Shown: positions 852 through 62,560 of the stretch, piece by piece
Position numbering within the stretch: position 1 is the stretch's first letter
Layout of the letters: each line of letters begins with the position of its first letter
Source of the DNA: Datnioides undecimradiatus
Lineage: Eukaryota; Chordata; Actinopteri; Lobotiformes; Datnioididae
NCBI GenBank assembly: GCA_008933995.1
Contig: WARS01000015.1
Span: forward strand, 620,001 to 684,000
Length of the DNA stretch: 64,000 bases
Direction: 5' to 3'
Notes under the pieces: model-generated
The model's input: the letters and a program-made list of their open reading frames with translations, nothing else
Told to the model about the DNA's origin: nothing
Databases searched by the model: none
Translations under genes and position numbers: made by a program

Positions 852-2198
852 CTAAAAAGAAACAAGCATATTACATCTTTTATGTGCTATACAGTAGCTT
901 TTACTCAATTGTGTTTCTAATCTTCTTTGTTGACTCTATTCTGATTTTTTATTGTCAAAGTCAACGTGTTACGGTCTGATCCGGGTGTAACAAGAACCAT
1001 ATAATGCAATACAGTACGTTTTCCTTTTTAAAAACAACACAGTGAGCAGGATTTTTCATCTTTAATGCATGTCATAATACTTACAGCCCTGTGCTTTTCT
1101 TCAGCTTGCTCTAGACTTCATGCGTTTGTGTTGACACTTGGTAACTGTGGTTTCCTTGAGTGGGGTGTGACTGCCTGCCAACATGAATTAGCCAACGCGG
1201 TAATGCGAGCATGGCGCATTGTACTCTTGGTGAAGCTGCTTAACTCAGCAAACCAGAGGAAAGAGCGTGAACGTTACTCTAACTTGTTAAAGTAGCCGAC
1301 TAACTGACAAGATGGGAAACACCCCCTGCACTTGTTTGTTTGGGGCATTTGAGGAATCCAGCTGCCTCTGAGTTCGTTTCTTTAGACGCTCTCTAACCTT
1401 GACGGCTGATGACTTTGTAGAAAAAAAGCAGTTTTGCAGTGTAATGGTGATTTGTGTCGGCTCTTCACTTCACTAGTATCACTTTTCTCTGATTCATGAT
1501 GAGCTGTGAAATAATATTTTCTTCCAACTTGTACTTTGTGACCCTTTGACTAGAGTGAGTTAGCTTCACTGGGATAAAAGTAAATACTATAACCATTAAC
1601 AGTTTAAGGGTTTGTTTAAGTAGAGTAGCCTCCAACAATCGTGCTTAAGCATCATATCAGCGTGTGATTAAAACTGAAACATGAATCACTGGTAAGGGGA
1701 AACAAAACAAAGCAAAAGCTTTTTCATCCTGGTGTACTTTTACATAAATACACTAAATTTCAGACTCAATTGGAATATTTTCAGCTGAAAACTGAATGAA
1801 AAGCCATAAGAAACTGTCTTAAGGCGTCAAGCATTAAGCTTTACAGTTGTTCAATGGCCATTAATAAGAAGTTGAGGCTGAAAGGGGAATACTGGCTGAA
1901 CAATTAAAGCTCGGCTGGGCTCTGCATCCCATCCCTCTGCTGTTTAAATGCACACAATATAACTAGTTATCCAGGGAACATTAAGCTTCTCTCTGCCTTA
2001 ATGAACTGTGGTAGGCGTGATTCAACACCTAAGGTGAACGTGGCCGTATCATATTCCATTTCACCGAGGCCTAACCCGTCATTTTCATACAATACGAGCC
2101 AAGTAATGTAGAAGTGCCACTGAATTACATGCAAATGCAGTCAGTAGGGGAACATGATTCTGAGTTTTTAAAGTGTCTGCAGGTGTGTGCTTGCACAG

Positions 2199-2234
<36 letters not shown>

Positions 2235-3498
2235 TATGGATTAGTGTCGTCTCAACAGGACCAGGATCATTAAGAGGAAAGGCCTGCTCACTGCAGACTC
2301 ATCAGTTATCCACGCCTGAGAAAAGCCAATGGTAGCTGAAAGGAATGGTTTGGCTCACATGCTCACGTCTCCATCTACTTAACTGAAATAGGGCTTCGGG
2401 GCAGTTCACTGTGCTGCTGCCAGTGGCCTCTTGGTTGTAATTTAAGTGTTTTATTTTGTAGGATGGACAAGATATCAAGCAAAGTGATCCCGAGCTACAA
2501 TGAAAATCATCATTGTCTTCCAATATATGCATCCAGATTATTCATAGACATGACTGGATGTCCGAGAAAACGCTAGGTTACAGGAAGTTATATGAAGCCC
2601 TCTTCTATAGAAGTCAGTGTTGCCATAAATCACAGCTCACCACTGAAGGCTGATCATTATTTTGTCATTATTAAAGGGTCAAGGCCGATACCTCCCAACT
2701 AAAGGCATTATCATCTTTGCAACCTTCATCATCACTGCTGCAAGTGAGTACCAAGGTCATATTACTGTGTCTCACATGAATAAACGCCCATACCCAACAG
2801 CACATAAGACCCTGGACTATCAGTTCCCCTTCCATGCAGTGGGAACAAGTTCATCAAGTTGTGAAGGTCCCCTTTCATAATGCACTTCCTCAACGTAAAA
2901 TTGCATCTGGTCTGTTTGCAGAAAAAACGTAATTCTCTGACCTCTTGGGTGTGTTTTTACAAAGGGTTAGATGGAGAGGGGGGTATTTGTTCTTGTAATT
3001 ATTATCTCTGTGTGTTTGTTTGTGTGATAGTGGGCACAGTGTTCACCAGAGGGGACAGAGCAGGCCAGCACTGAAACAAGGGCCGGAGGGGAAGACGTAA
3101 TGAGCTATCATATACACCGCACAGCATCTAAAACAGAGAGGAGACTGCTCAGTGCTGCCTGCTCGCTGCTGCATGTGGGTGATAACATTCACCGAGGCCT
3201 GACCCATTTGACGAGGAAAAGACACATGGCTCCAGCGCAGGAACGTCCACGTCACAAAAGAGGACAAGTCTTTAAAACCTCCAAGGTTTCAGTCGCTGTC
3301 AGCTCCGGATTTACCAAGGTCACTGCTTTAAAAGAGTAAATCTAGTAGCTGCTAAACACCGTGAACAAACATCACATACTAAACCACAAAGAGATAAACT
3401 CAGATGTGGGTGACAGCAGATCCACGACTGAATTATAAACATCTCCACGAGGCATTGTGGGGATGCATTATGCAATCACCAGCATACAGATTACCCAG
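852..3498. other. Divergent intergenic / fam81b 5' region
   Basis: This stretch lies between the fam81b exons and the mctp1 promoter area. It must hold the remaining fam81b 5' exon or exons, but I could not pick one out with a matching phase. It contains a CA microsatellite at 2200-2233. The short ORFs on both strands have no recognisable domain and no codon bias, and I see no tRNA or transposon. Confidence 0.5.
2200..2233. repeat. (CA)n microsatellite
   Basis: An uninterrupted CA dinucleotide run of about 34 bases. A small ORF reading through it (HTHTHT) is an artefact of the repeat. Confidence 0.95.
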
Positions 3499-3988: not shown

Positions 3989-4525
3989 ATGGAGCAGAAA
4001 TCCCCTAAAGATGAGAGCACCGCCAAGGGACAGGAGTCTCTGTCCTACCAGCGCAGGATGTGGAAGAATTTCCAGGAGAAAACCAAGCCTTGGCTAAGTC
4101 CTAAACTGGGATCGGAGCGTCGGGGTACCGGGGGCGCGGAGGGCAGCAAAAAGGAATCGGGGTTATGGATGTTCAAGAGGAAAAAGAAACAGTTGGACCG
4201 GGTGTTTTCGTCGTCTCAGCCGAATCTTTGCTGTTCTACCCCGGCGCCTTTTGAAGGGGATAAGAAGTCCCTTGGAAGCGACGCGGTCCCCGGCACCAGC
4301 AGCGACGGCCAGCCTCTGCTACAGACCCTTGGCGCAGCTTCTGGAGCCACGGGGAGCAAGCCCGAGCTGACGGCGCATGGGAGCCCCAAACTCCCCGTAT
4401 CCCAGCTGATCACGTACCAGCAGAAGAGCTCCTCTCTCGGCTCGGCGTGTTTCGAGAAACTGGTGGTGGACCCGGCCGCGGTGATGGGAGAGGAGGAGCA
4501 GCTGCGTAAAAACGCAAGTGATTCT
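3989..4525 (+). CDS. mctp1: mctp1 exon 1: N-terminal region of MCTP1
   Basis: The first coding exon has 179 complete codons. The start lies in CACCATGG, a strong Kozak context, after an upstream in-frame stop. MCTP1 is an endoplasmic-reticulum-anchored protein with three C2 domains and two C-terminal membrane segments. It is linked to calcium sensing, membrane traffic and synaptic homeostasis. This exon encodes the low-complexity cytosolic N-terminus. The MCTP1 landmarks, recalled from memory, are YQRRMWKNFQ (residues 20-29), the basic run KRKKKQ followed by LDRVFSSSQPNLCCS (69-83), and QKSSSLGSACFEKL near residue 150. The SSSQPNLCC block is nearly identical to human MCTP1 and absent from MCTP2, which decides the paralog. 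The exon ends at TCT|GTGAGT, phase 0. If intron 1 were retained, translation would stop at about 4585. A 121-codon ORF on the other strand is a shadow. The a/b teleost copy is unresolved. Confidence 0.95.
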
Positions 4526-7079
4526 GTGAGTAAAGAGCATGTGGCAAAACACGCATCTGGTAAAATATCTGCTACTGTCAAATAAAGCTTGTATTAAAAA
4601 CATCAAAACGTGAAGGAGGGGGGCTTGGCTACATTGTCCTGGAAATTAAACGAAGGAGACAAGTTTCATGATGGTGGTGCTGCGACGTGCTCACTGCTCG
4701 TATCATGTGATGCGCTCATCGATTTGCCAGTTCACTGCTTTCTTTACTCTCTCCCGTAGCTTGTAGGGCTGTATGGGCCAGATGATTACAGCCGATGCCA
4801 GTATAGGCCCGTGTGATGATCACAAACAACACGCTTACATCACTGCTTGGTTTGGTAGCATGTCACCATCCCAGTCACAAGGTTATTTCAGTTAAAGTCT
4901 CCTTGATAGGATTTCCACAGACAACATACTCTGATGTCATTAACAGCCTCCCTTTTGCCTGCTCACATCCTTTTCTTCCTGTATAGGGATTGTCCCCTAG
5001 CTTCACACTCCATCTGTCACGGTGTCCTTGCCCGTGGACAGAGGCTGCAACAGGCCCACGAATGCTCAGGGGTTCATCATGTCTCTCCTTTTCATGAAAA
5101 GTGGCCAGTTGGCAAATGGTTGTCAGGCACGCCACCAGCAGTGTTGGGGATTGATGGCAAATACATTCCTGCCACGCTCAACGTGCTGAGTCAGGATGCC
5201 CCCGGAGAAACGGCATCGAAGGGATGTGTCAGCTAGAGTGGGCTAGATGTGGAGGTAACGTTTGGGAAAATGACAGAGGCCACAGCCCTAAAGGTGTGTG
5301 AGAAAACTGGAAATGTAGTGACTAAGTGACATTGTATGGAAACCACTGTCTGATGAGAGTAATGACTAAGTCTATAAAGTCCCGTCTGGACCCACACCTT
5401 GTTACATGATCTGATCTCACTCACTGGTCCAGCAGTAGGTAACATCATATCAGATAGGGTGTTGTGATATTTAATAGTCCTGTCGATATAAATAAAGCTG
5501 AAGATACAGACCAGCATGTGGGAATACCCATAAGCCCCTTCTCTTTCAGTGGCAGGAGATGTTACAAAGCTTTTCATCACGCTTGCTCCTGAAGTGTTGC
5601 AGACCTGCTCCCGAGCATCACCCAGATCGCTGTCTAAATGTGATTTAGCATATATAAGTACACTTCTCCCCACTGAAGTCGGTTCCAATGAGCTCTCATG
5701 CATTAAATCTCTAGAAGTGTAGTGCACTTAGCGGAAGAGGTAAAAAGAAGGCGGGCATTAATGACTTCACTGAAATTGATCTTGCAGTTTCACCACAGCA
5801 CTTACCAGGTCAGTTACATAACACGCAGCGATCTCACTTTGCCCAAAATAAAACAAATAAAAAAAAGTTGCAGCATTCAGCACGAGCTGTTAGGTACCTC
5901 CTGTTGTTGCCATGTTTATCCGAGCCGCTGTTGCTCATTTGTTGGATTTTCCACATGGCTGGAAAGAGGAGAGACGCGGTAAATACTACTCACAGCGACC
6001 GCTTCATCTTTACGGGTCATAGTGCACTGGCAGAGATATTTGTTGATAGTTTAAGTACCATCACAGATAGAAAGATACACAGTATGATATTAATCTATTA
6101 TATAATGAAGTTAGGGGAGGAAGAAATGGGAAAAGATGGAATAAGATGATGATGAAGGGTGCAGAGAGGAAATAAAGGTGCTGAAGGCAGATCAGACAGG
6201 GTTAGAAGTAATTAGGGGTGATAAGACTGGGTCAAATGAGACAGGACGAGAGATGAAGATGTGGTGTGTGATAAAATAAGATTAAGATTAGGGTAGAAGT
6301 CAAGAGTGGAGATGAGAACGGATGTGACTTGACATGCTTTATTACCACCTGAGGGAAAATAGCATTACAGGATGAAGAAATAATGACTCAAAATCACAGC
6401 AAACCTGCAGATAATTGAGCCAAAATGTATATGGTTGATTAATGTTTGCACGTGCATTGTTGTGCATGCACGTTTATTGCGTTCATTTGCAGGTGCACGC
6501 TATTGTTGAACTCACAGTATATGCTGCCTAAACACTTTACCAACCCAAGAAGGATTATAACTCAGAGTCACACACTTTAACAGTCGTCCACAAATCCAGC
6601 ATTAAGTGAGTGCACAGACATTCTCATTACTAAAATGAGAGTGTAAAGCTCCAAGCCACAATTTCATAAATGAAATAAAAATATATGGAACATACCAAGT
6701 AAAATGCCTTTTCACAATTTGATATGGAATAAGTGATGAAAGGGATAAAAGCCAAGTTCTGGGAGTAATTTCATTATTGACTTAATGGAGAAAGACCTAA
6801 GCACATTTAACTTTTGCTGCATGCGGTGCAAAGGCAGTTAGATTAAATATGTGCGTGTGCAATTCTGTGTTTGTGTGCGAAGCAGTAAAACAGTAGTGCT
6901 GCAGTAAATAATTATTACCATCTTCCCGATGTTAAGTTCCAGTTTCCTTTGCAGCCTCACTTTGAAAGCAGTTGGTATTGAATTCAACATGTTCTTCCTC
7001 TTTCTGTCTCTCTCAATGTAAATGTCACACTTTTATGGGATTCGTCCCTTCATTTTAGGCCTAAAGGGCAGCAGTAGTT

Positions 7080-7190: not shown

Positions 7191-8329
7191 CAAACATCTC
7201 ACCAACATTTCTGTGGGACTCGTGTCTGTATTTTGGGCCTAAAGATGTTTCTATTAGTTTTTCTCCATGTATCTTTTCACTTAAGCATGTAGGACGTTGT
7301 CAGCTCTCTTACCATTACTAAATGAGAATATCACTGAGGGATCCAGTTGTCTTCAGTTCTTGAATCAGTTGAGTTAAACGGTCTTGATTTCACAGTCTTC
7401 TGTCCTTCTCTGGTGTTGTTAGCTCTCTAACCTTCAGTATGGGACAGAGTTGCCCTTCTGTCTTTACCCGACTGACCTGCTAAGCCGAGTTTCATTTACA
7501 CCTTTAATTGGCGGGGGGCAGCTTTGCTTTTGATGTGGATATTTGACGCAGCTCTAATCTTGCAACAACAAAGGATTGTAAATGCAGGTTCTGATTTTCA
7601 TTAAGGTAATACAACTGCATCTGTATTAATGTAGAACCTCATATTAACTGAGCAGGGAAGCTCTTTAGATCACGGGTAAATAAACTTTCAGTAACATTGC
7701 CTATGAGCTGCCCAAGTCTGTTTACTCTATGGTGCCGGTTTTAGACTGTAAGCCAACTTGAGCTATGGTTTCTGCTGCATGTATACCATGTAATACAGGT
7801 CCAATGGGCTCCAATCATTGCAATCAAAGTAGTTACCAATACCGTTTAGTATCTCTGAAACTGGATGGTAGCTATTGGAAAAAGTTTTTTTCTTTGGACA
7901 AAAATATTGCTGTAAAAAAGAGAAGCGCTAAAATCCAGTGGGATAAAGTGTCTCATACATGGCCGGTGTTGTATTTTACTGGTATTGATTCCGAGTCAGC
8001 GTGTCACATCATGAAAGCTGCTCAAAAATCATTTTTTAAATAAAAAATATTTCTATGAAAGTGACAAAGAAGAAAAAAAATCGAAGAGGTGAGTCACACA
8101 AGACCAGCGTAGTAATTATTTCTGCTACTGATTTTGAGTCACAGCACATTGAAGCTGCTACCTGTAGCATCTATTTAAGTATTTATGTAAAATAATGGAT
8201 TTACGCATCAGTAATCAAAAGATGTGCGCGGCACTTGATTAATTTCGTATAATAATATATATAAGTTTTCATTATGATGGGAAATTCAGCATGAGGGTAT
8301 TAAAAAAAACACGTGTCATTTAAACAGCA

Positions 8330-8930
8330 GTTTATTGATGAAGTCGTGCTCCATCGATTTGGCACGAGCGCTTGGAGGTGAGCCAACCGTCCGTTATGAG
8401 CGACGTCACGCGGCCAGGAAGTAGATACAAACCGCGCGCCTGAATTAATGAGGTGAATTAATTTCCTAACAGTAACCGAGACGACGTCTGCTCGTGATTT
8501 GGTTCACAGCAGCAGTTCAGAGTCCGGGCGCTGAAGTAACATTAGGGTCCAAGCATAAACCGGAAACAGCGGAGTTCAGAGGTGAACGAGGGTTATACCA
8601 AAGCGGCTTATTGGTAGCACAACGTAAGCAAACCTCTTGCTTTAACATTACCTCCTCTGGCTGCAAACAACAGGCGAACCAAGGCAGCTTTACTCAAGTC
8701 AGTATGACAACGGTGTTTCTGAGTGAGTGTGTATCCACGTTTTTAGTCAAACTCCCATTACTCACCGCTGCTCTGGACTTTTAAGTGAGTTCAAACATGG
8801 CCAGGCTCTCCGTACCTCTTCCGCTTCGTGTGAACATTTGTCTTCCTCCCTTGCGGACATGTTTATCTGCACACATCGAGGGCTTCACACGCGGAAGGCC
8901 CGGGTCACGCGGCTGTGACCCAATGATTAT
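8330..8930. promoter_or_regulatory. CpG-dense island in intron 1
   Basis: I count close to 20 CpG dinucleotides within about 220 bases (8340-8560), including CCGCGCGCC and a CRE-like GCGACGTCACG near 8400. The surrounding intron is CpG-poor. GTGAGT-type splice donors follow at about 8784 and about 8962. This pattern fits a regulatory element or an internal promoter with a non-coding or alternative first exon. A 96-codon ORF at 8494-8784 has no recognisable domain. The function is inferred from composition only. Confidence 0.35.
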
Positions 8931-16578: not shown

Positions 16579-17468
16579 ACATGACTTGTGTTGCGCATAC
16601 TGTTGCTGTGTCCTGCGTGTACCGCTGCTGGTCACAAAGACGGATCTGCGCGCGGGTCTTCTTATTCACACCAGAGTCAAGTCTCAGCGTGGTGCGAGGC
16701 CAAAGCCCATATCTTGGATTGCATCCCGAATACTACAGCAGCCAGGCTCAGGCAGCTTCACCGCTTGTGTTTCCTCTCGACTGTACGGAGCTTGTGTAAT
16801 TAGCTTGCCTATCGCTGCATCCATTGTCCTCAGAGCACCCATCAGATACTGATTCATGTTAGGAAATCATTTAAATGGACACTTATCTTTATGATTTGTC
16901 AGGTAAATATCCTAAAATAATCATGAAAATTGTCTTTTTAAAGGAATGAGAATTATTATACATGCATATTTAGGATTAATTAAAGCTGGCATCCTCGCCT
17001 AGTGAGGACCAATATTGTAACTCTGAACAACTCTGAAATGCAAAGCTGGGATGCTTTCAGATTGAGTCGTGTTACGATTATTTTTCCCTGATAGATGAAC
17101 GTTAACGTGGGCGCCTGGAAGCAGCTGATCTGTATCTCCGCCATGCATCTTTGGCGACGGAGCCGCTCTCCCTCGTGAACTTTCGACTGCGTCTCACAAC
17201 TTCAGATTTCGTTCGAAGTGCGTTAGACATTCAGTGTACCAAGCGTTTCAGAGGTGGGAGTGGGATGAGGAGCGGAGGTAATTTGGGAAAAGGCGCATTC
17301 TTCTTCACGGTTCACTGAAGATTACCCAAAAAGCTCCACTATCATTGTCCGCCGCTAACCGACCTATAAATCACACTGATACACACTGCAGCACCACCAT
17401 GCTGCAGAGAGGGAGATACGGCATTTTCCAGCCTATTACAACGGGACGGTATTTGGCGTGCATAACAT

Positions 17469-17478
17469 TTTATTTATT
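17469..17478 (-). promoter_or_regulatory. Polyadenylation signal of nested antisense gene
   Basis: On the minus strand this reads AATAAATAAA, two overlapping canonical AATAAA hexamers, centred roughly 60 bases past the stop codon of the antisense ORF. A short 3' UTR with a clean signal supports a real transcript ending here. No genomic poly-A tract follows, which argues against a recent processed retrocopy. Confidence 0.65.
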
Positions 17479-17534
17479 GAAAAAGAAAGTCGAAATCGTA
17501 GAAAATGAAAGATGAAGATGACGCGTTGAGTCCA

Positions 17535-18525
17535 TTAGTCCTCATCTTCTAACCTTTGCCACTTGTAAGGTGAATGAGGACTGAAAATGTCACTGAGATA
17601 CGTCTTCAGTTTCCTCACCGTGCCCGCTCCTCTCACGTCTGACTTCATTTGTTTCTCTGACACAGGAGGTGCTGGCGCCCCTGGCTGTTTGTCAGCGCTC
17701 TGTCGGTCAACTGGTGTTTCTTTGACATGGTTTCCTCTCATTTCCCGTTTATCCATCCATTCTGCCCATTGTCTCTCCATCAGCAAAGCCTCCTCCCCTT
17801 TCGATCTGTCCACTTTGCCTCTTTTCACCTCACGTCTCCCTCTTTGGGCCACAAAGCTGGGGTTCGAATGAAACAAATTCCTTGAGATTTGCGCCTCTTC
17901 TGATTCCCTCATCAGCTGCCTGGTGTCAGACACACCAGCGACATCTGCTGAAACGCTTCGTCCGTCTTCCTGTTGCTCACATTCAACTGGTTGTGAATCG
18001 GTTTCGCCATAGCTGGTTTCACCATAGCTGGTTTCACCATCGCTGGTGTCCTTATCGCTGGTGTCCTCATCGCTGGTATCGCCATCACTGGAAACATCTA
18101 ACAGCATCTTTGAGCTTTCCCTTTGTTTGGGTGGTTTCCTAATTATGATGATTCTGTGTGCATTTGAGAGGGTTTCAGACAACGTTAAGTCTAGTGTCTC
18201 CAGGTCCATTGATTTTGCTTCAGTCTCTTCATCCTCCCTGGTGTTCTCCGTGTATTTATCCTCCCTCTTCCTCAACTTTGATGTCACCCTCTGATCTTCA
18301 TCCAGCCTGGCGTAACGTACAGACCTCACTCTTGCTTTCCCTCTCTCAGCTCTCAGCTCTCTCAGCTGTTCTTGAAGCTCAGCCATTATCTCTTCTCTCA
18401 GAGCATAATTCATGAGCAGGATCTCTGAACGCAGCTCTGCAATTCTCTTCTCCACCTTCTTATTCACCATCCTGTTGATCCATAAGATGCAGAATCTCCT
18501 GTCGTTAGCTGCCTGTTGTCTCCTC
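17535..18525 (-). CDS. Unrecognised nested antisense gene, last coding exon
   Basis: This is the longest ORF in the window without a family assignment. It has 311 codons from an ATG at 18470, and the same frame is open a further 18 codons upstream to an acceptor at TGGTCAG|G. That upstream part (RFCILWINRMV) also looks coding, so the 18470 ATG is probably internal. Seen in the product, numbered from that ATG: a basic, probably coiled-coil segment at about residues 5-42 (IAELRSEILLMNYALREEI); a KR/E-rich linker; six acidic pentapeptides of the type GDTSD/GETSY at about 127-157; a long hydrophilic, probably disordered middle; and a C-terminal block LKTYLSDIFSP and YKWQRLEDED just before the stop. 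There is no signal peptide, membrane segment or zinc finger. It lies wholly inside mctp1 intron 1 on the opposite strand and ends with a polyadenylation signal. I do not recognise a family. A nuclear or scaffold role would be a guess. Confidence 0.75.
18001..18090 (-). repeat. 15-base coding minisatellite, six units
   Basis: Six consecutive units of exactly 15 bases, for example GTTTCACCATAGCTG on the plus strand. On the coding strand each unit encodes a pentapeptide: GDTSD, EDTSD, KDTSD, GETSY, GETSY, GETDS. All unit changes are substitutions, so the frame is kept throughout. The two central GETSY units are nearly identical, which suggests recent unit duplication. The acidic Ser/Thr sites resemble casein kinase 2 targets, which is an inference. 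Confidence 0.95.
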
Positions 18526-18660
18526 CTGACCAGTACGAAAGTTAATTATCTTATTATTATCTTTTAACACTACTGCTCGTATTGCAGACAGGGTTTACAG
18601 AAAATAAGATTCATTAAAACAGACGTTTGTGTGGCCTTTGCCTGTTAAAAAGATTTGTAC
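18526..18660 (-). other. Intron of nested antisense gene (135 bases)
   Basis: A short GT-AG intron on the minus strand, with donor CTCAG|GTACAA and acceptor TGGTCAG|G followed by AGGAGG. A second AG three bases on would give the same phase and add or drop one Arg. The polypyrimidine tract is only moderate. The intron contains in-frame stops, so read-through is not possible. Confidence 0.6.
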
Positions 18661-18731
18661 CTGAGATGAGCGAAACCGAGACGATTCTTTCTACCAGATC
18701 TTGCCATCAGGTTATCCTCTTCTTCCAATTT
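18661..18731 (-). CDS. Unrecognised nested antisense gene, upstream coding exon
   Basis: A 71-base exon with a very good acceptor (TTTTATCTTTTCCACACAG) and donor CAG|GTACAA. One frame is open throughout and reads KLEEEDNLMARSGRKNRLGF then AHL, plus AG. Those two bases join the G of the next exon to give Arg, so the phase matches the last exon exactly. Translation may start at the ATG at 18707-18705, giving a 345-residue product, or in an exon further upstream. The Lys/Glu-rich residues before that Met look coding. No upstream exon could be fixed by eye between 18.74 and 20 kb. Confidence 0.6.
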
Positions 18732-21700
18732 CTGTGTGGAAAAGATAAAAGCGCAGGTACATTTCACTTATTTTCGTGCCACTGTGAACCATTAATCCTG
18801 ATTTACTGGGAGGATTAATCATTGTTAACAAGTACAACTGGACGAGCGACAAGATGGCAGCAAGATGGATATCACTGTCCTCTGCTCCTTTAGAAATACT
18901 AAAGTGATAATGGCTCTGCTGTCTCTCTCTCCGTGTGTGCGTGAAAGTAATGTCTTATAAAACTTTTTCAGCGAGTCGACCTTTTCAGTGCACCAAAGCA
19001 CTCGGTGTTCATGGTTCTCTTTTACATGATGAGGTACAGTATGTGCTGTTGTAAGGAGGATTAAAAAAGCGATATAAATGCCCTCCAACCGATGTTTGGC
19101 ATCTGCCCTTTGAGGATAATACCAGCATTTTACTTATTAACTGCTTTAGAGGCCTGGCGGTATGCATTAAGAATATTAAAAACATAACCAGATGAGGCAT
19201 AAAGCTTACTGAGGTGGTTTTCTTACCCAATACTTAGAGATAGTTGTTTAAAATCAAAGAAATACACTCTACAGTTACGCAACACTTTATTTTATACCAG
19301 CAAGTCCTATTGAAATCACTGCTTTAACTTGAAATGTAAGTGAAGATGTTTTGTTTGCGGCGTGGCAGGATGTGGCATCATTCTGTCTTCTTGAAACTGA
19401 GACTAATTACTGGAAACGCATGTGCACATTCACACATGCTCTAATCTTTCCTGACGGGCGCTGCAGATCACGTCTAAACTACAGGTTGCATTAGTCAAAA
19501 CGGTTATTGTGTTCACTTTCTTGTGGGCTCATACCTTATTAAACGGCACTGTGGTAATTTTCTTCACTGACTAATGCTAAATAATTTAATTGAATATCAG
19601 CCTGAATGGACTTACCCCCTGCAGCTGAAGTCTCCCCTTTGTTCGTCTTTTTGCAGCTGCAGCAACCACACAGCATGCTTCTCCTCCTGTATAAATTTGA
19701 AATTCATGCATCTTTGCAACAGCTTCTCCAGAACTGCGTTGCCATGTAACATGCCTGAGGTGATACATTCATATACAAACAAATGTGTAAAAATGGGTAT
19801 TTGATTCTGAGTTTCTTGTTGTGTAGAGTTTTGCCGTGCTACATGACGTGGCATTGGTATATATGGTGTTGGTTAGGTCATTTCCTGTTTTGATTTTAAG
19901 TCATCACCACATTTCTCCAGGTTCTCTTTCACACTCATTTGTTGGGTTTCACTCACTTACTTTCAAACTTTAACTACGTGGAGCCTGAAAAATACATGTA
20001 CGGCTGTAACAGTCGCTACGTGAATAACAACTCGCATGTATCTTGATTAGGGCTTTGATTTCATTGTTTACGGCTCCCATCAGAAACCAGCCGCTCTGTT
20101 GTTGCGCTGGAGTTTACGCCTCTAACAGGTGGCTGCTATTTCGAAGTCACGATTGCGACCACGGGCCACGGTCTCTATAAAAAGGCTTGCCTCGTCACAG
20201 CGTTACTTTTCATTTCGCCTTGCTTCATTTCATTCTTGCTTCCTGTCACTCTCACTTTCCTTCCGTTTCAACGCTTGTCTCTTCTCTGTTTAATTTGTCA
20301 TTCTGTCCCTCGGTCTCATCCCGTCTCTCAGTATTTCTCTTCTTTCTCCATCTCAAGGACGAATAGCCGAGATGCTGAGGAGCGCATCGGGCTCTTAAAA
20401 GTCTATACTAAGACGTGTGAGGGGGGTTTGTATTCTTGTTTACCCCGGCATGCTCTCACAAATGTGTTAATTCACTGGGCTGACATTAGAGCGCTGCGCC
20501 CTTTTGGGTGACCTCTGAAGCTGCGAGCTTAGGCAAGGATTCCTGTTCCCCATTGGTGTGCACATGTGCTGTTGACACACTGGCTGAAATATTAGTTTGG
20601 GACACACACGTTGCCCGTCAGCTCTCTTTCCCTCTCGTGCCTCTGACAATATTATGTTGCCGTGATAAATGTTGACTGGACTGTTCGCGCCATCGTCCGT
20701 GAGCTCCAAAGAATCAGGGGTGAGTTTCATCTCACATTTCTCTCACTCGGATTTATTATAAAACTAGTTAACAGTGTTATCACTTAGCATTTTGTCTACG
20801 CTGTAAACTATTCTTTACATCAGCTCTGATTAACAGCTTGGAAACATGTTTATTTGTGGGAGGGGATTCATATTTTTGCTTTTAAATCCTCTTTGATTAA
20901 AGTTTGACACTGAGTTATAAACTCAGAGATTTCTGTGGCTGTGATATGTTTATTATCACTTTACCTTAACGACGGGACAGCAGCAACACACCGGATACAG
21001 CGCCGCCCCGCTCAGCTCAGTGGTATTTTAATAAACGCGCGTGACAGTCGTGCACTATTGCATCTCAAAAACGCCGCAAATTGAGTTGTTTGTTTATGCA
21101 GCAGATGATATTGTTTATGAAGCAGATGCTAGCAACTGTGTGCAGAAGAAGACTGTTGTGTGCGTGTGTTTGTGCTCATGCATATCTTTCCTTTCCCGTA
21201 ATGAAACAACTCAATGTCTCTGATGTGAATATTCATTTAAAAATGACAATGCGGCCACATAGACTTATCAAAACAGTGCCTGTCAATACCCGATTCAGAT
21301 ATTAGACATTCCCGTGGCTGAAATCTGTCCTGTCCTGTCTGTCTAAAGAGAGGGAGCGAGACCGAAACGTCTATTAGCTTTATTTTTTTCATTAGTGCTT
21401 ACCAGAGGGCCTGAAGTGGCATCGTCTGGAAGCCGGGGAGATTATCCTCTGTCAGCCATCTGCTCATCCCTGTCTTTCTCTCTCTTCATCTTCTTTAATC
21501 ATAACATCTCTCCAACTGCTCATACTCATTTATGCTCTTTGCACACCAGCGCATAACAGCATTAACCTCAGGTAGGAATTCTTAATCTTCAAGATTTTCG
21601 GGTTGTCCTCTCTGTAAAATGGAGATTGACATGGACAGTGCTGCCTTGTAAATGCCTCTGCAGAGCTAATGTAAAATGTGTTCTGAGTAAGAGGCCCCTC

Positions 21701-47681: not shown

Positions 47682-47802
47682 GGCATCAACATAGTGGGGC
47701 CCAGTAATGCAGAGCCCGCACCCAGACCTCCTAGTCCAGCCATGTACCAGCTGGATATCGTCCTAAAGAAAGGGAACAACCTGGCCATCCGCGACAGGAC
47801 AG
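47682..47802 (+). CDS. mctp1: mctp1 exon 2: start of first C2 domain
   Basis: A 121-base exon with acceptor TCTGTCTGCAG|GGC and donor ACAG|GTAGGT. It enters in phase 0, matching exon 1, and ends with one base of a Gly codon. It encodes residues 180-219: a linker with SNAEPAP, then MYQLDIVLKKGNNLAIRDRT. From memory this corresponds to human MCTP1 MYQLDITLRRGQSLAARDRG. The last part forms strand 1 and calcium-binding loop 1 of the first C2 domain. Asp217 is the first predicted calcium ligand. The frame stays open for about 135 codons past the donor, so intron retention would give a long alternative tail; the strong donor makes splicing the expected outcome. Confidence 0.95.
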
Positions 47803-50449
47803 GTAGGTGCTCTGTCCTTTCTTCTTGTTACCACAACAGCGTTGATGTTTATATAAAGAGACAGGGCGAACAGCCTCTATCTAGCCCACCAAATGAAAGC
47901 TACCCTATCTCTGTCAGCCTCCCTCAATTGTTTTGGCACTGGCACAGACAGTGCTGCGCCCCGGATGCTACCTGGGTGCTGCCGTGTGCGATCTTTTATT
48001 CATCTGCTTTCTTTATGGGTCTAACCCCATTTATATACAAATATATGCCTCTTTTTGGGAATGTAATGTTTTACTCGGGACTATTTTTTCAGCACTTCGC
48101 CTCACATTTCACTCCCTCCTCCCTCTTGTCTCTCGCCCCATGTGAGGTTTCATCAGATCGCGCGTCTCCTCTTCGCAGCTCACTCCATTTTCCATGTGTG
48201 GAGTGAGACAGAATTACTGAGAATGATGCTGCAACATTTCCTGCGCATCCAGGCATGAAAAGATCTCAGCTTTGGCTTTAAGCTAGAACATTGTCACGTT
48301 CGGAGCCAAGGCGGTTAATACTAGTGTGCTCCCCTGGTATTTTTGTGTAATATGCCTAAATCATGCTGCTGAAAGAAAAAGTCTTTTCTTTCCTTCCCAG
48401 TGCAACAGGCAACGCGATGAAGGCTTTTAGTTTAAGTAAAGGCTCTAAAGTATTGGGCATTATTGTATGCGAACGTTACTTTTACACAATTTTCTGCACT
48501 TTGTGATAAATATTTAATTTAGTAACTTTGAAGAGGCCCAAAAGGAGGCTGAGTGGCATTTCATAATGGTTGAAAGGGTTCAGTGGAGCAGAAGCATGTT
48601 TATGTAGTTCTGTCCTGAGTTGTTTAATTCGCTGCACGTACCTGTCTCTACCATTGTGGAAATAAATAGAGTTTATCTACACCAGTGTTAAGGTGTTATC
48701 TCGTATTAAACCACTGGAGAGTGATTGTGTTGTTAAGTGCAGGACAGATAGCCTTCTGCCCACTGTGGACACTGTCTACACTCAGCCCTTATACTGTTTT
48801 TTAAGCAGACAGCAAGGGCTGCCAATGAAAACAAGAAGAGCAGGAGATTTGCTTATAAACTCTCACGAGCGCTGGCTTTGGGTGGTGACGGATGCCCTGG
48901 TCTCGTTAGCCGTTGTAGCAGTCACCATGACGACAGGTCCAAATTAGCTGCCCTGCTCTCTCCCGAACATTTCGCCTGAGTACCTGTCCGTCGGCGTAAT
49001 GAGCAGTGAGGTGTAGAGCTCACCTGTCCTGTCCTGAGTCCCGCAGGACAGCTCATTACAGAGAGCGGGAGAGACAGAGATACAGTCAGACGACGCCGAA
49101 ATATAGTGGACTGAAATGAGCCATAATGTCCTTTCAATCAGTGTTGTGACTTATGTTGATTTGTCGCGCAACCCTCAGAGCGGGCTTTTTTAAAATATGA
49201 ACATGTAGAAGTCAGGAAATGTACATGTTGCTGCCGTGCCGCAGGCGAAGGATAAATTGCAGAAGACAGACGTGGGATATGTGGGATTTTCCATGAAGCA
49301 ATCAGTCTAGGCTCCCCTGTCAGGTGTGCAGACTGGAGAACAGCTAGGTATTAAAATAAAGGTACTTTGCTGGGAGAAGCAATTTAGTTCTGCATCCTAG
49401 AGATTCACTAAAATCTCTTACATGAATTATAAATGAAACACCTATTTTCCACTTTCATCCGCAAAACATTTTGAGGAATCGTCTTTTGCAGAAATGGATT
49501 TTCTGATAGGCGTATCCAGCGAACACGGAAGCGAGACCTGAAATAACTGAGCTGAAAGTAAAGCCTTAACTTGCAGGCGGGCATGCTAATCGCTTCATTA
49601 CGATGTTTCATAAACAGTGTGCGATATCAAACCAAGATACCCAGAGCATTGCTTCGCATTCACCACGAAACACTGCTGAAATAATAAAGAACGCTGACAT
49701 TTGCAGTCTGCCTTTGAGGGAGACTCGCCTGGAGCTTTACATGAAGTTGAAAAACACAGGCAGCAAATATTCAGAACGTGTCATATGATACTGCTGCTCT
49801 CGTCTATGCATTCAAGCTATGCACGCGTCCAGAGACGTGGTTGTTGAGACGCACACAAAAGAGTTGAGACGGGGTCAGGCATGATGAGCATCCTGTTCCA
49901 CATTAGTGCACTGTCTTGCCTTTATGTCCTGTGGGTAAAGCTCCAAGTGATGAAAGGGACCTTTTCAGCCCTCACAGCCAATTAAAGGATGTTTCGCTGT
50001 AACAAAGCGATGAAAGTATGGAGCCCTGAGAAAGTGAATACAGGTAATGTGGAGGAACAATAATGGTAGCAAAACACTGGAAACGTCTTTTGTTACTTCT
50101 GATTAATTTTCCACAGAGGTACTCCTGCTAAAGGGCCAATGTTTCTTATCTGTGGATAATTAAAACGACAAAGCCCTGTTGATAATGCTGCTTTGTACTA
50201 AAACAGATGATTTACTCATTTTAAGATTAGAGTTTTGCATACTGGATGCCTGCTGAAGGCCTGACAACTACCTGCTTGTCATTAGTAATAATAAGTTATG
50301 ATTATGGTGATTTGGGGGTTTCCTTCCATAGACTAGTCTCAGCCCTCTTGACCCCTTTTATGGGTACTTTCTGTATACCATAAGGCACTAGAAAAAACAA
50401 TATACATATACAGCGCATGGCTCGTCTGAGAGCACTGTTGTTAGCCTAG

Positions 50450-59890: not shown

Positions 59891-62196
59891 GTGTGCGTTT
59901 CTAGTATCTCTGCTGGTGTGCACGGGGGTTGTCTAAGGGTGTTGAAATGTGAAGAAGTTTTCCCAGCAGGCTGGTGCTGGTGCATATTTTGCCACTCTGG
60001 CATCAAAGCTCGCTGGCAGCTCGCGTCAGCAGCTCGTGCTCGACAGATCTGATGACGGTGTGTTAAATCTTGTTAATTACACTTATGTCAGGCTCAGATG
60101 ACAACTGACTGCTGAGTATTTAAACGCTTTCCTTGCATTTAGAGTCGTAATTATACAACTTTAACTACAACTCTTCATTACCACATCCTTATGTTTCTGC
60201 TCACTTCTCTTCTAAGCACAAAACAGCCAATGTCAGTCTTACCATTAGTCATTTTACCGCCTCTAATACGCATCACGTCAGATGTGACAGTCAGATATTT
60301 GTACTCGTCCTCTCGCTAATGATAGAGCACGACTCCATCTTGAACCGATGAGATACGTGCAAAGTGCTGAGAGCTCAGCCTTTCATCAACACGCATCCTC
60401 GCTGTCAGCCGCTTCCATGACACTGCCTCTCGCTGGCGTGCGTACAGCGTGTATTCCACCATGCAGCAGCTACTATATGTTACTCTCTTATCAAAGAGGT
60501 ACTGGCAGGAAGGATAAACCGCGGGCTCGGAGTGAGAATTGTTCGATAACAGGATTCCCTTCCCTCTCATGCGATTTGCTCGGTAATCGCTTTCGTCACG
60601 GCGGATAATAACACACAACGCTGATTTGAAACACGTGCAGCACATACAAACAGATATAGTCCAGGGCACTGTTTCACAGGAGGTTGATAGGATGACGACA
60701 GAAGTAAAGAGAGAGCATGAGGATGGATCTGTAGTGAAGAAGTTTGCATTCATTTAATGGAACTGGACAGCCAACCGTGGGCAACAGACGTGAAAATATA
60801 TAAATCAGTGCACTCCATTTACATTAGCTTGATAGTATTTTGAAAAATACATGCTGCAGTTATGCATTAGTAAGTTTCAGGGCAGCCCACATGGTGCAAA
60901 TTGTACCAAAATGCTGGCCCGAGCTGCAGCGCTGTATATTTTGCCTAGAGCGAGTGTGAGAATGACCAGTCGTGCCCTCGCTGCACTTCGCCATGAAACA
61001 AGACTCAGAAACAACCATAAAAGACAATAAGCTGCCTTGTGTACCGTATGTATGGGAAATACCTCTGCCTATTCCTGCTCACTTGACCTCTTAATGTTCT
61101 CTGATCGTGGACGTGAGCTGACTTCCCCTGCACAAACAAGCTCTGAATGCAAAACACTGCGTCATGGATACTACCCGTGTGTCTGAAATGCATCTTCTGG
61201 ACTGTGCGTCGTATTTCATTAAATGTCTTTTTTCTCGACCCAGATCTTTGTTTCTTTCTGGTCTCTGTCTCTGTTTTTCTCTGCCTGTCATTCCAATTGA
61301 CTTTGTACTGAAGTTTATGGGCCTTGGGGGATAGGAGGTTAGAGTAAAGCAGAAATTGGATGGGCCGGAGGATCAATGCCAATTTACCAGAGTCATAATG
61401 TAGAATCATATATCTCATATTTTTGCTCTTGGTCATCATGAGGAATGGTGAATACAAAGAAACAGACCCTCCAACCTGTTTCTCACTGTCTGGGCTCTGT
61501 CTTGGCTTTGGTGCACACAGTGTTTACACTGAGTCTGTACTCTTTTTTCAGAATGGAATATGTTAAAGTGTGCAAGCAATAATGTTTATTAATACATATT
61601 AATAAAATATTAATAATAGTTTTTCAAGGATTCTTAGATCCCGCCAAAATCAGACCCTTTTGCAGAACCACCCAAGTGTAAAGCAATGGCGCCACCTTGT
61701 GGTCGAATAGAGATACTGCGCGGGACGCGTGCATCCAAGCGCCCAGCCACAATATTTACATAGTGGTAATCACATGACTCACGAGCGAGAATGAGTCACA
61801 TGACATCCCTTATTCTCTCTTAAGAGGTTCAATGCCGCGTGCACAGCTGTGTCTCTGTGTTTAAAAATAGCTCGAGTGTTGTGTTAATAACTGCATGATT
61901 TTAAAAAAAACCATTCATGCATTGTGCAAACATCCGCTCAGTATTTTAAAAAACATAGCATTTGTTTTTTTCTTTTCAAATCCTATTTAATATGAATATT
62001 CAACAGATAAACTACATTTTCCATAAACTAGTTTATCTCAGTTGTAATTCTGCAGACTACCACTGTTGTAGCTGCGGGTTGACCTGCTCACACTTTCACT
62101 CTGACACTTTTAGGCAGTATTGGCGGTATCAACATCATCAACATCAACCTGTCGTTGACGGTACTTATCTGTGTTTCTGTGTTTCCTTCCCTGCAG

Positions 62197-62339
62197 GCAC
62201 CAGTGACCCGTATGTGAAGTTTAAGATTGCAGGAAAGGAGGTTTTCAGGAGCAAGACCATCCACAAGAACCTCAATCCGGTGTGGGACGAGAGAGTAAGC
62301 CTGCTGGTGGAGACCCTGAAGGACCCACTATATGTCAAG
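62197..62339 (+). CDS. mctp1: mctp1 exon 3: core of first C2 domain
   Basis: A 143-base exon with acceptor CCTTCCCTGCAG|GC and donor GTCAAG|GTACAG. Its first two bases complete the Gly codon begun in exon 2, and it ends in phase 0. It encodes residues 220-267, including [20 protein letters not shown] and [11 protein letters not shown], both hallmarks of MCTP first C2 domains and almost identical to human MCTP1 as recalled. Asp223 in SDPY is the second predicted calcium ligand, six residues after Asp217 as in synaptotagmin C2A. The ORF seen running left to about 61962 is intron sequence. Confidence 0.97.
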
Positions 62340-62560
62340 GTACAGGAGATAAGTCCTGGGCTTCAGATGTCGCCCTGCTGTCGGACAGACTGCTGCTGCA
62401 TATGACTTTAAAGCCTCAGTAGGCACGAACTCATTATGCAAGCACCTTTTTATTTTAGATAAGATGAAATGATGTGAACCTAATGTCAGGGACAGTTCAC
62501 ACTGGCAGTTTAGTGTCGAGGGTCCTCTGCTAATAGTTTGTGTGTATTTCCTCTTTGCAG
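62340..62560 (+). other. mctp1: mctp1 intron 3 (221 bases)
   Basis: A short GT-AG intron between two exons of the same C2 domain. The acceptor has a clear pyrimidine tract ending CTCTTTGCAG. It is strikingly shorter than introns 1 and 2. Confidence 0.9.

Follow-up and report, generated by a model that had tools for sequence, protein, structure and literature searches.

A minus-strand reading frame within mctp1

The window analysed here, a 64,000-nt stretch (C328:620001-684000) of the 581-Mb, 497-contig genome of the fish Datnioides undecimradiatus, carries exons of mctp1 on the plus strand and, between them, a long open reading frame (ORF) on the minus strand. The N-terminal coding exon of mctp1 (matched extent 3989-4486, plus strand), which resembles that of human MCTP1, is followed by an exon at approximately 47733-47855 (plus strand), located by tblastx against a paralogous mctp1 locus, which ends intron 1, and by the first C2-domain exon at approximately 62181-62342 (plus strand). 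The joined translation of the last two exons matches the C2 domain (PF00168, E = 4.1e-14). The paralogous copy lies at C464:10325697-10336933, and its N-terminal and C2 exons share 45% and 74% identity, respectively, with those of the window; its first-intron region, from the N-terminal to the C2 exon, is 10.7 kb long and much shorter than that of the window, where intron 1 by itself measures about 43 kb. Within this intron, a CpG-rich stretch at 8101-8700 (observed/expected 1.1-1.45) is a possible alternative promoter. Upstream of mctp1, to its left, the minus strand carries exons at 221-469 and, in stretch L002, at about 521-826 and 5679-6011, which we take to belong to the coiled-coil gene fam81b, opposite in strand to mctp1. 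A zebrafish deletion table (PMC9210284) lists mctp1a, zgc:194908 and fam81b in neighbouring rows, and because the fam81b-like neighbour agrees with the fam81b and mctp1a rows, we infer that the host in the window is a mctp1a-type copy. In that table zgc:194908 carries the strand sign of mctp1a and is thus not antisense to it in zebrafish.

The nested ORF occupies 17535-18470 on the minus strand (311 codons plus stop, identified from its translation, stop pattern, three-base periodicity and codon score), between the plus-strand mctp1 exons at 3989-4486 and about 47733, and therefore within one host intron and on the strand opposite to its host. This bears out the initial annotation, which had described a long minus-strand ORF of this kind, antisense in mctp1 intron 1. 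All models drawn below lie within this one intron, which a model with exons beyond 47 kb would leave. The stop-free frame runs from 17538 to 18545 (minus strand) and, at 336 codons, is the longest of the window, exceeding the maximum of 320 codons across 200 windows simulated at order 3 and of 275 codons across 250 simulated at order 4. Simulations trained on the ORF stretch itself (5000 per order) reached at most 226 codons at order 2 and 238 at order 3, so base composition is not the cause of the missing stops, and over 335 codons each of the two other minus-strand frames contains 24 stops and the ORF frame none. A 200-kb sample of the same genome (20 stretches from one contig) contains 962 frames of at least 60 codons, of which 1 attains 336 codons; by eye this one reads as a Tc1-like transposase, and its codon score is negative. 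A Tc1-like frame of this kind, 378 codons long, is found in the sample at 1797-2930 (minus strand) of stretch L025.

Three-base periodicity points to coding in the same way. The ORF has a period-3 power of 4.96, a value attained by none of 255 background windows, and of 5.26 once an internal 15-nt repeat is left out (0 of 300); any window that overlapped the ORF or exon 1 of mctp1 had been excluded from the background. The signal is strong in the 5′ part of the ORF, where 1 of 614 background windows attains its value, and weaker in the 3′ half (29 of 611). The ORF frame has a codon score of 28, second among the 325 window frames of at least 60 codons, behind mctp1 exon 1, and the maximum in 250 simulated windows is 12. 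This score is nevertheless unspecific, since 3 of the 962 frames in the 200-kb sample score at least 28 and, by eye, one of these resembles a low-complexity acidic run, the other two being coding exons. The codon table was a human one, and neither it nor the splice-site matrices used below were trained on this genome. Synonymous codon choice alone does not exceed chance level (the value of the ORF is attained in 430 of 3000 null draws), as expected for a young or fast-evolving gene but equally for a chance frame. From frame length, stop pattern and periodicity, all of which exceed simulation or background, we accept the coding frame with good confidence; the initial annotation had likewise judged the ORF to be coding and unlikely to arise by chance, and for the frame itself this holds. 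It had also noted a sequence 57 bases beyond the stop, and the poly(A) signal AATAAATAAA is indeed present at 17478-17469 (minus strand), at about that distance.

Splice sites and start codons at the 5′ end

The ATG at 18470 lies in a strong Kozak context, AGGATGG, with A at −3 and G at +4, the best of the starts examined, and a short out-of-frame upstream ATG frame runs over it. As had been claimed, the frame stays open upstream of this ATG to an acceptor, with 18525 as the first exon base and the frame open from 18545. The acceptor and its branch point-like element occupy 18526-18545 (minus strand); the CAG at 18528-18526 scores 3.77, in the top 2.3% of AGs, and a branch point-like TTAAC has its A 17 nt ahead of the exon. 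We regard this acceptor as credible. The codon score is clearly positive only 3′ of the ATG at 18470 and neutral or negative 5′ of it, amounting to −2.7 over the 18 codons between acceptor and ATG (18471-18525, minus strand).

The initial annotation joined this acceptor to a 71-base upstream exon at 18731-18661 (minus strand) with good splice sites and exactly matching phase. The stretch is bounded by AG and GT, and the join is in phase, giving 345 aa from an ATG at 18707; the description of its splice sites was overstated, in that the acceptor scores 4.88 (top 1.3% of AGs) and the donor, CAG/GTACAA, only 0.23, a value equalled or exceeded by 9.8% of 7717 GTs. Its codon score is neutral (−0.4 over 23 codons), and because it begins at an acceptor it would be an internal exon and not simply the first; the best first exon for it in a scan up to 30000 is 24411-24358, with a score of 5.82. 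Fixed-phase internal exons as good on both splice sites and codon score number 2 on the plus strand and 10 on the minus strand of the window, the 71-base exon being counted by its scores among the latter, so the exon and its phase agreement do not constitute strong independent evidence. Given its poor donor and neutral codon score, the acceptor with which it begins and a competing in-frame first exon, the 71-base exon is doubtful, perhaps an alternative one, and the two-exon model is not supported.

The competing first exon lies at 19752-19616 (minus strand); it comprises 45 codons and 2 further bases, its ATG has G at −3, and its donor, GGG/GTAAGT, scores 5.7 (top 0.3% of GTs). It joins the acceptor at 18525 in frame and would contribute MLHGNAVLEKLLQRCMNFKFIQEEKHAVWLLQLQKDEQRGDFSCR to the product; if the 71-base exon were spliced after it, a stop would close that frame. 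With thresholds placed slightly under its values, 2 first exons pass on the minus strand of the window and none on the plus strand. Its combined score of 7.59 is the third of 14 first-exon candidates in the scan up to 30000, which is led by 21467-21403 at 10.86 (8.11 with the shorter start of that exon), so 19752-19616 is likewise unproven as the first exon. The GC content of the candidate introns is 0.33 and 0.39, compared with 0.48 in the ORF. A CpG-rich stretch at 20001-20400 (observed/expected 1.1), about 250 bases upstream of 19752 on the minus strand, is a possible promoter of the nested gene.

The predicted protein and searches for relatives

The predicted product has 311 aa from the ATG at 18470, 345 aa with the 71-base exon and 375 aa with the exon at 19752. 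A single-sequence AlphaFold2 model (mean pLDDT 66.5, pTM 0.24), which is the source of the long helix at residues 2-109, places further helices at 181-202, 204-216, 222-249 and 282-296 and leaves the acidic middle at low confidence and without secondary structure. The acidic repeat noted initially is present as an in-frame 15-nt tandem repeat of 6.1 copies at 18000-18091 (minus strand), encoding DTSDE/DTSDK/DTSDG/ETSYG/ETSYG, with several S-x-x-D/E sites across the array that we take to be CK2-like; a basic run, RGRREVKRGKVDR, lies in the C-terminal half. The accompanying claim of a coiled coil stands in part. In residues 1-42, L, I, V and M recur about every 3.76 residues, close to the limit of the 3.4-3.8 range scanned, a signal that 4 of 2000 shuffles match (22 of 2000 with aromatics counted), and in the same scan residues 1-60 are matched by 20 of 2000 (176 with aromatics). 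A heptad signal at 3.5-3.6 is absent from residues 1-60 when alanine and aromatics are counted (3947 of 5000 shuffles match), hydrophobic periodicity is absent from segments 82-109 and 222-249, and the little of it in 282-299 (54 and 72 of 2000 shuffles) is not comparable to that of residues 1-42.

The earlier statement that no family fits agrees with our searches. Pfam returned only sub-cut-off matches (HAAS, Tub, M and Sec2p) for the full ORF, for segments of it and for four 5′-end models, and nothing above cut-off for six other ORFs of the window, one of which is the C2 exon in the wrong frame; Rfam gave no match in the window at gathering threshold. Two sequence searches of the PDB gave two matches each, with best E-values of 1.2 and 0.42, and a Foldseek search with the AlphaFold2 model gave 22, the best at E = 1.8, none of them significant. 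As a yardstick for Pfam E-values of about 0.004, we take a match of RdgC with E = 0.004 on a fam81b-like exon to be false, and the reversed-sequence control matched Ribosomal_S14 at E = 0.055. The Tub family (PF01167) was considered separately and rejected. Its weak match to a 123-aa model spanning the junction of the 19752 exon (E = 0.0024, 18.1 bits) weakens to E = 0.15 with the 71-base exon in its place and stands at E = 0.011 (15.9 bits) on the full 375-aa model, both bit scores falling below the 27-bit Pfam gathering score. A genome-wide Tub search with 25 candidates scored gave 33 stretches, none at the nested locus. A true Tub gene on contig C465, read by eye, has a phase-0 intron before VFLMAGRKRKK, whereas the intron of the nested model leaves 2 bases and lies later.

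Searches of the own 581-Mb genome returned the locus itself and nothing else, both with the protein at E ≤ 10 (7 and 2 best candidates scored) and with the DNA of 16900-20100 (1 best candidate scored). Since only the best candidates are scored, this single-copy result is strong but not absolute, and no paralogue, as would befit an orphan, was found among them. On the paralogous mctp1 region (26 kb, three loci), tblastn gave only noise, the 375-aa model reaching a best E of 3.7 and the 24-residue exon 0.28, and the longest frames in the 10.7-kb first-intron region of that copy have 165 and 161 codons; the nested ORF thus appears to be absent from that locus, where it has left no trace that these comparisons of sequence could detect. 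None of 3 pattern matches in IMG/VR and of 25 in GTDB genomes was confirmed, in searches that detect close relatives only, and tblastn against phages and plasmids (E ≤ 0.01) gave no relative; fish genes are not expected in any of these collections. A search of the literature by titles and abstract openings found no description of the nested gene.

A putative nested gene and its possible origin

We consider it fairly probable, at roughly 0.7, that the locus contains a single-copy protein-coding gene, probably taxonomically restricted, nested antisense in intron 1 of mctp1. Transcription of such a gene would start at a minus-strand promoter of its own, upstream of 18.7 kb. An upstream exon, whether 19752-19616, the 71-base exon or a further one so far unseen, would be joined to the acceptor at 18525, and polyadenylation would take place near 17.45 kb. 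At its N terminus the protein would have an amphipathic helix capable of self-association, followed by an acidic S/T-D/E linker that could be phosphorylated, and its C-terminal half would be basic and helical and contain NLS-like runs. From this composition we suggest, with low confidence, that it may serve as a self-associating nuclear scaffold or adaptor rather than as an enzyme.

Two variants of this reading concern the 5′ end. The one that we hold to be a serious contender, at somewhat less than even odds, has translation begin at the ATG at 18470 behind a non-coding leader, spliced or not, for a product of exactly 311 aa, with the upstream 'exons' untranslated or due to chance. It gains from the strong Kozak context and from a codon score that turns clearly positive only downstream of that ATG, and loses from the frame that remains open up to the acceptor and from the short upstream ATG frame that overlaps the start. 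More tentatively, a longer antisense gene may end in the ORF as its last exon, with coding exons farther upstream, at 18.7-47 kb or beyond, and a product larger than in any model above. Both the acceptor at 18525 and that of the 71-base stretch require an upstream exon, and other first exons exist, such as 21467-21403 with its higher score than 19752; against this, no other minus-strand frame of at least 60 codons in the intron comes near the score of the ORF, the best between 18.7 and 47 kb among the 20 top-scoring frames reaching 2.2, a search that leaves room for short exons.

Two further explanations do without a nested gene of this kind. That the ORF is a chance frame in a long antisense non-coding RNA or in untranscribed intron DNA is unlikely in our estimation: synonymous codon choice at chance level would fit, but frame length, stop pattern and periodicity all speak against it. 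Less probable still is that the ORF stems from a transposable element or a virus or is a processed gene copy, which could account for a mostly single-exon frame and a charged product. No related copy or parent gene was seen among the protein and DNA candidates scored, and the lack of a second copy argues against a transposable element, of which several copies would be expected. Searches of IMG/VR, phages and plasmids came back without a confirmed match, and between 14000 and 24000 the inverted repeats amount to arms of the CA/TG type plus a single 20-nt pair at 85%. In this genome an element origin is close to refuted, and an old domesticated element could still be traceable in other fish.

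We thus return to a fast-evolving, antisense nested protein-coding gene as the probable identity of the locus. Nested 'orphan' genes as such have been described before. Like nested intronic genes on the opposite strand in other vertebrates, the predicted gene lies wholly in a host intron; unlike nested protein-coding genes of vertebrates, it belongs to no recognised family and is known here from its sequence alone. With orphan genes it shares a short, charged and partly unstructured predicted product without detectable family, no clear codon bias and no second copy found, from which we infer that it may be taxonomically restricted. PMC2151771 puts overlapping genes at 5-14% in vertebrates, with 4.8% in fugu and 6.9% in zebrafish, and describes many of these overlaps as lineage specific; on those figures, a nested locus such as this one is of moderate rarity. 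As to its origin, the ORF is found in the window's copy of mctp1 and missing from the other copy, from which we draw a speculative and rather doubtful scenario in which the gene was born de novo out of antisense intron sequence in a single teleost lineage, later than the fish genome duplication, and is protein-coding, the gene now being spliced and polyadenylated and its in-frame acidic repeat still expanding.

A nested gene of this kind would by itself overturn nothing. It does counsel caution, in that deletions in mctp1 intron 1 or antisense reads from it in fish could concern a second gene. If the predicted gene is expressed and conserved, it would add one more lineage-restricted gene nested in a gene for a C2-domain membrane protein, and the two mctp1 copies in one genome would offer a built-in comparison for the origin or loss of a nested gene.
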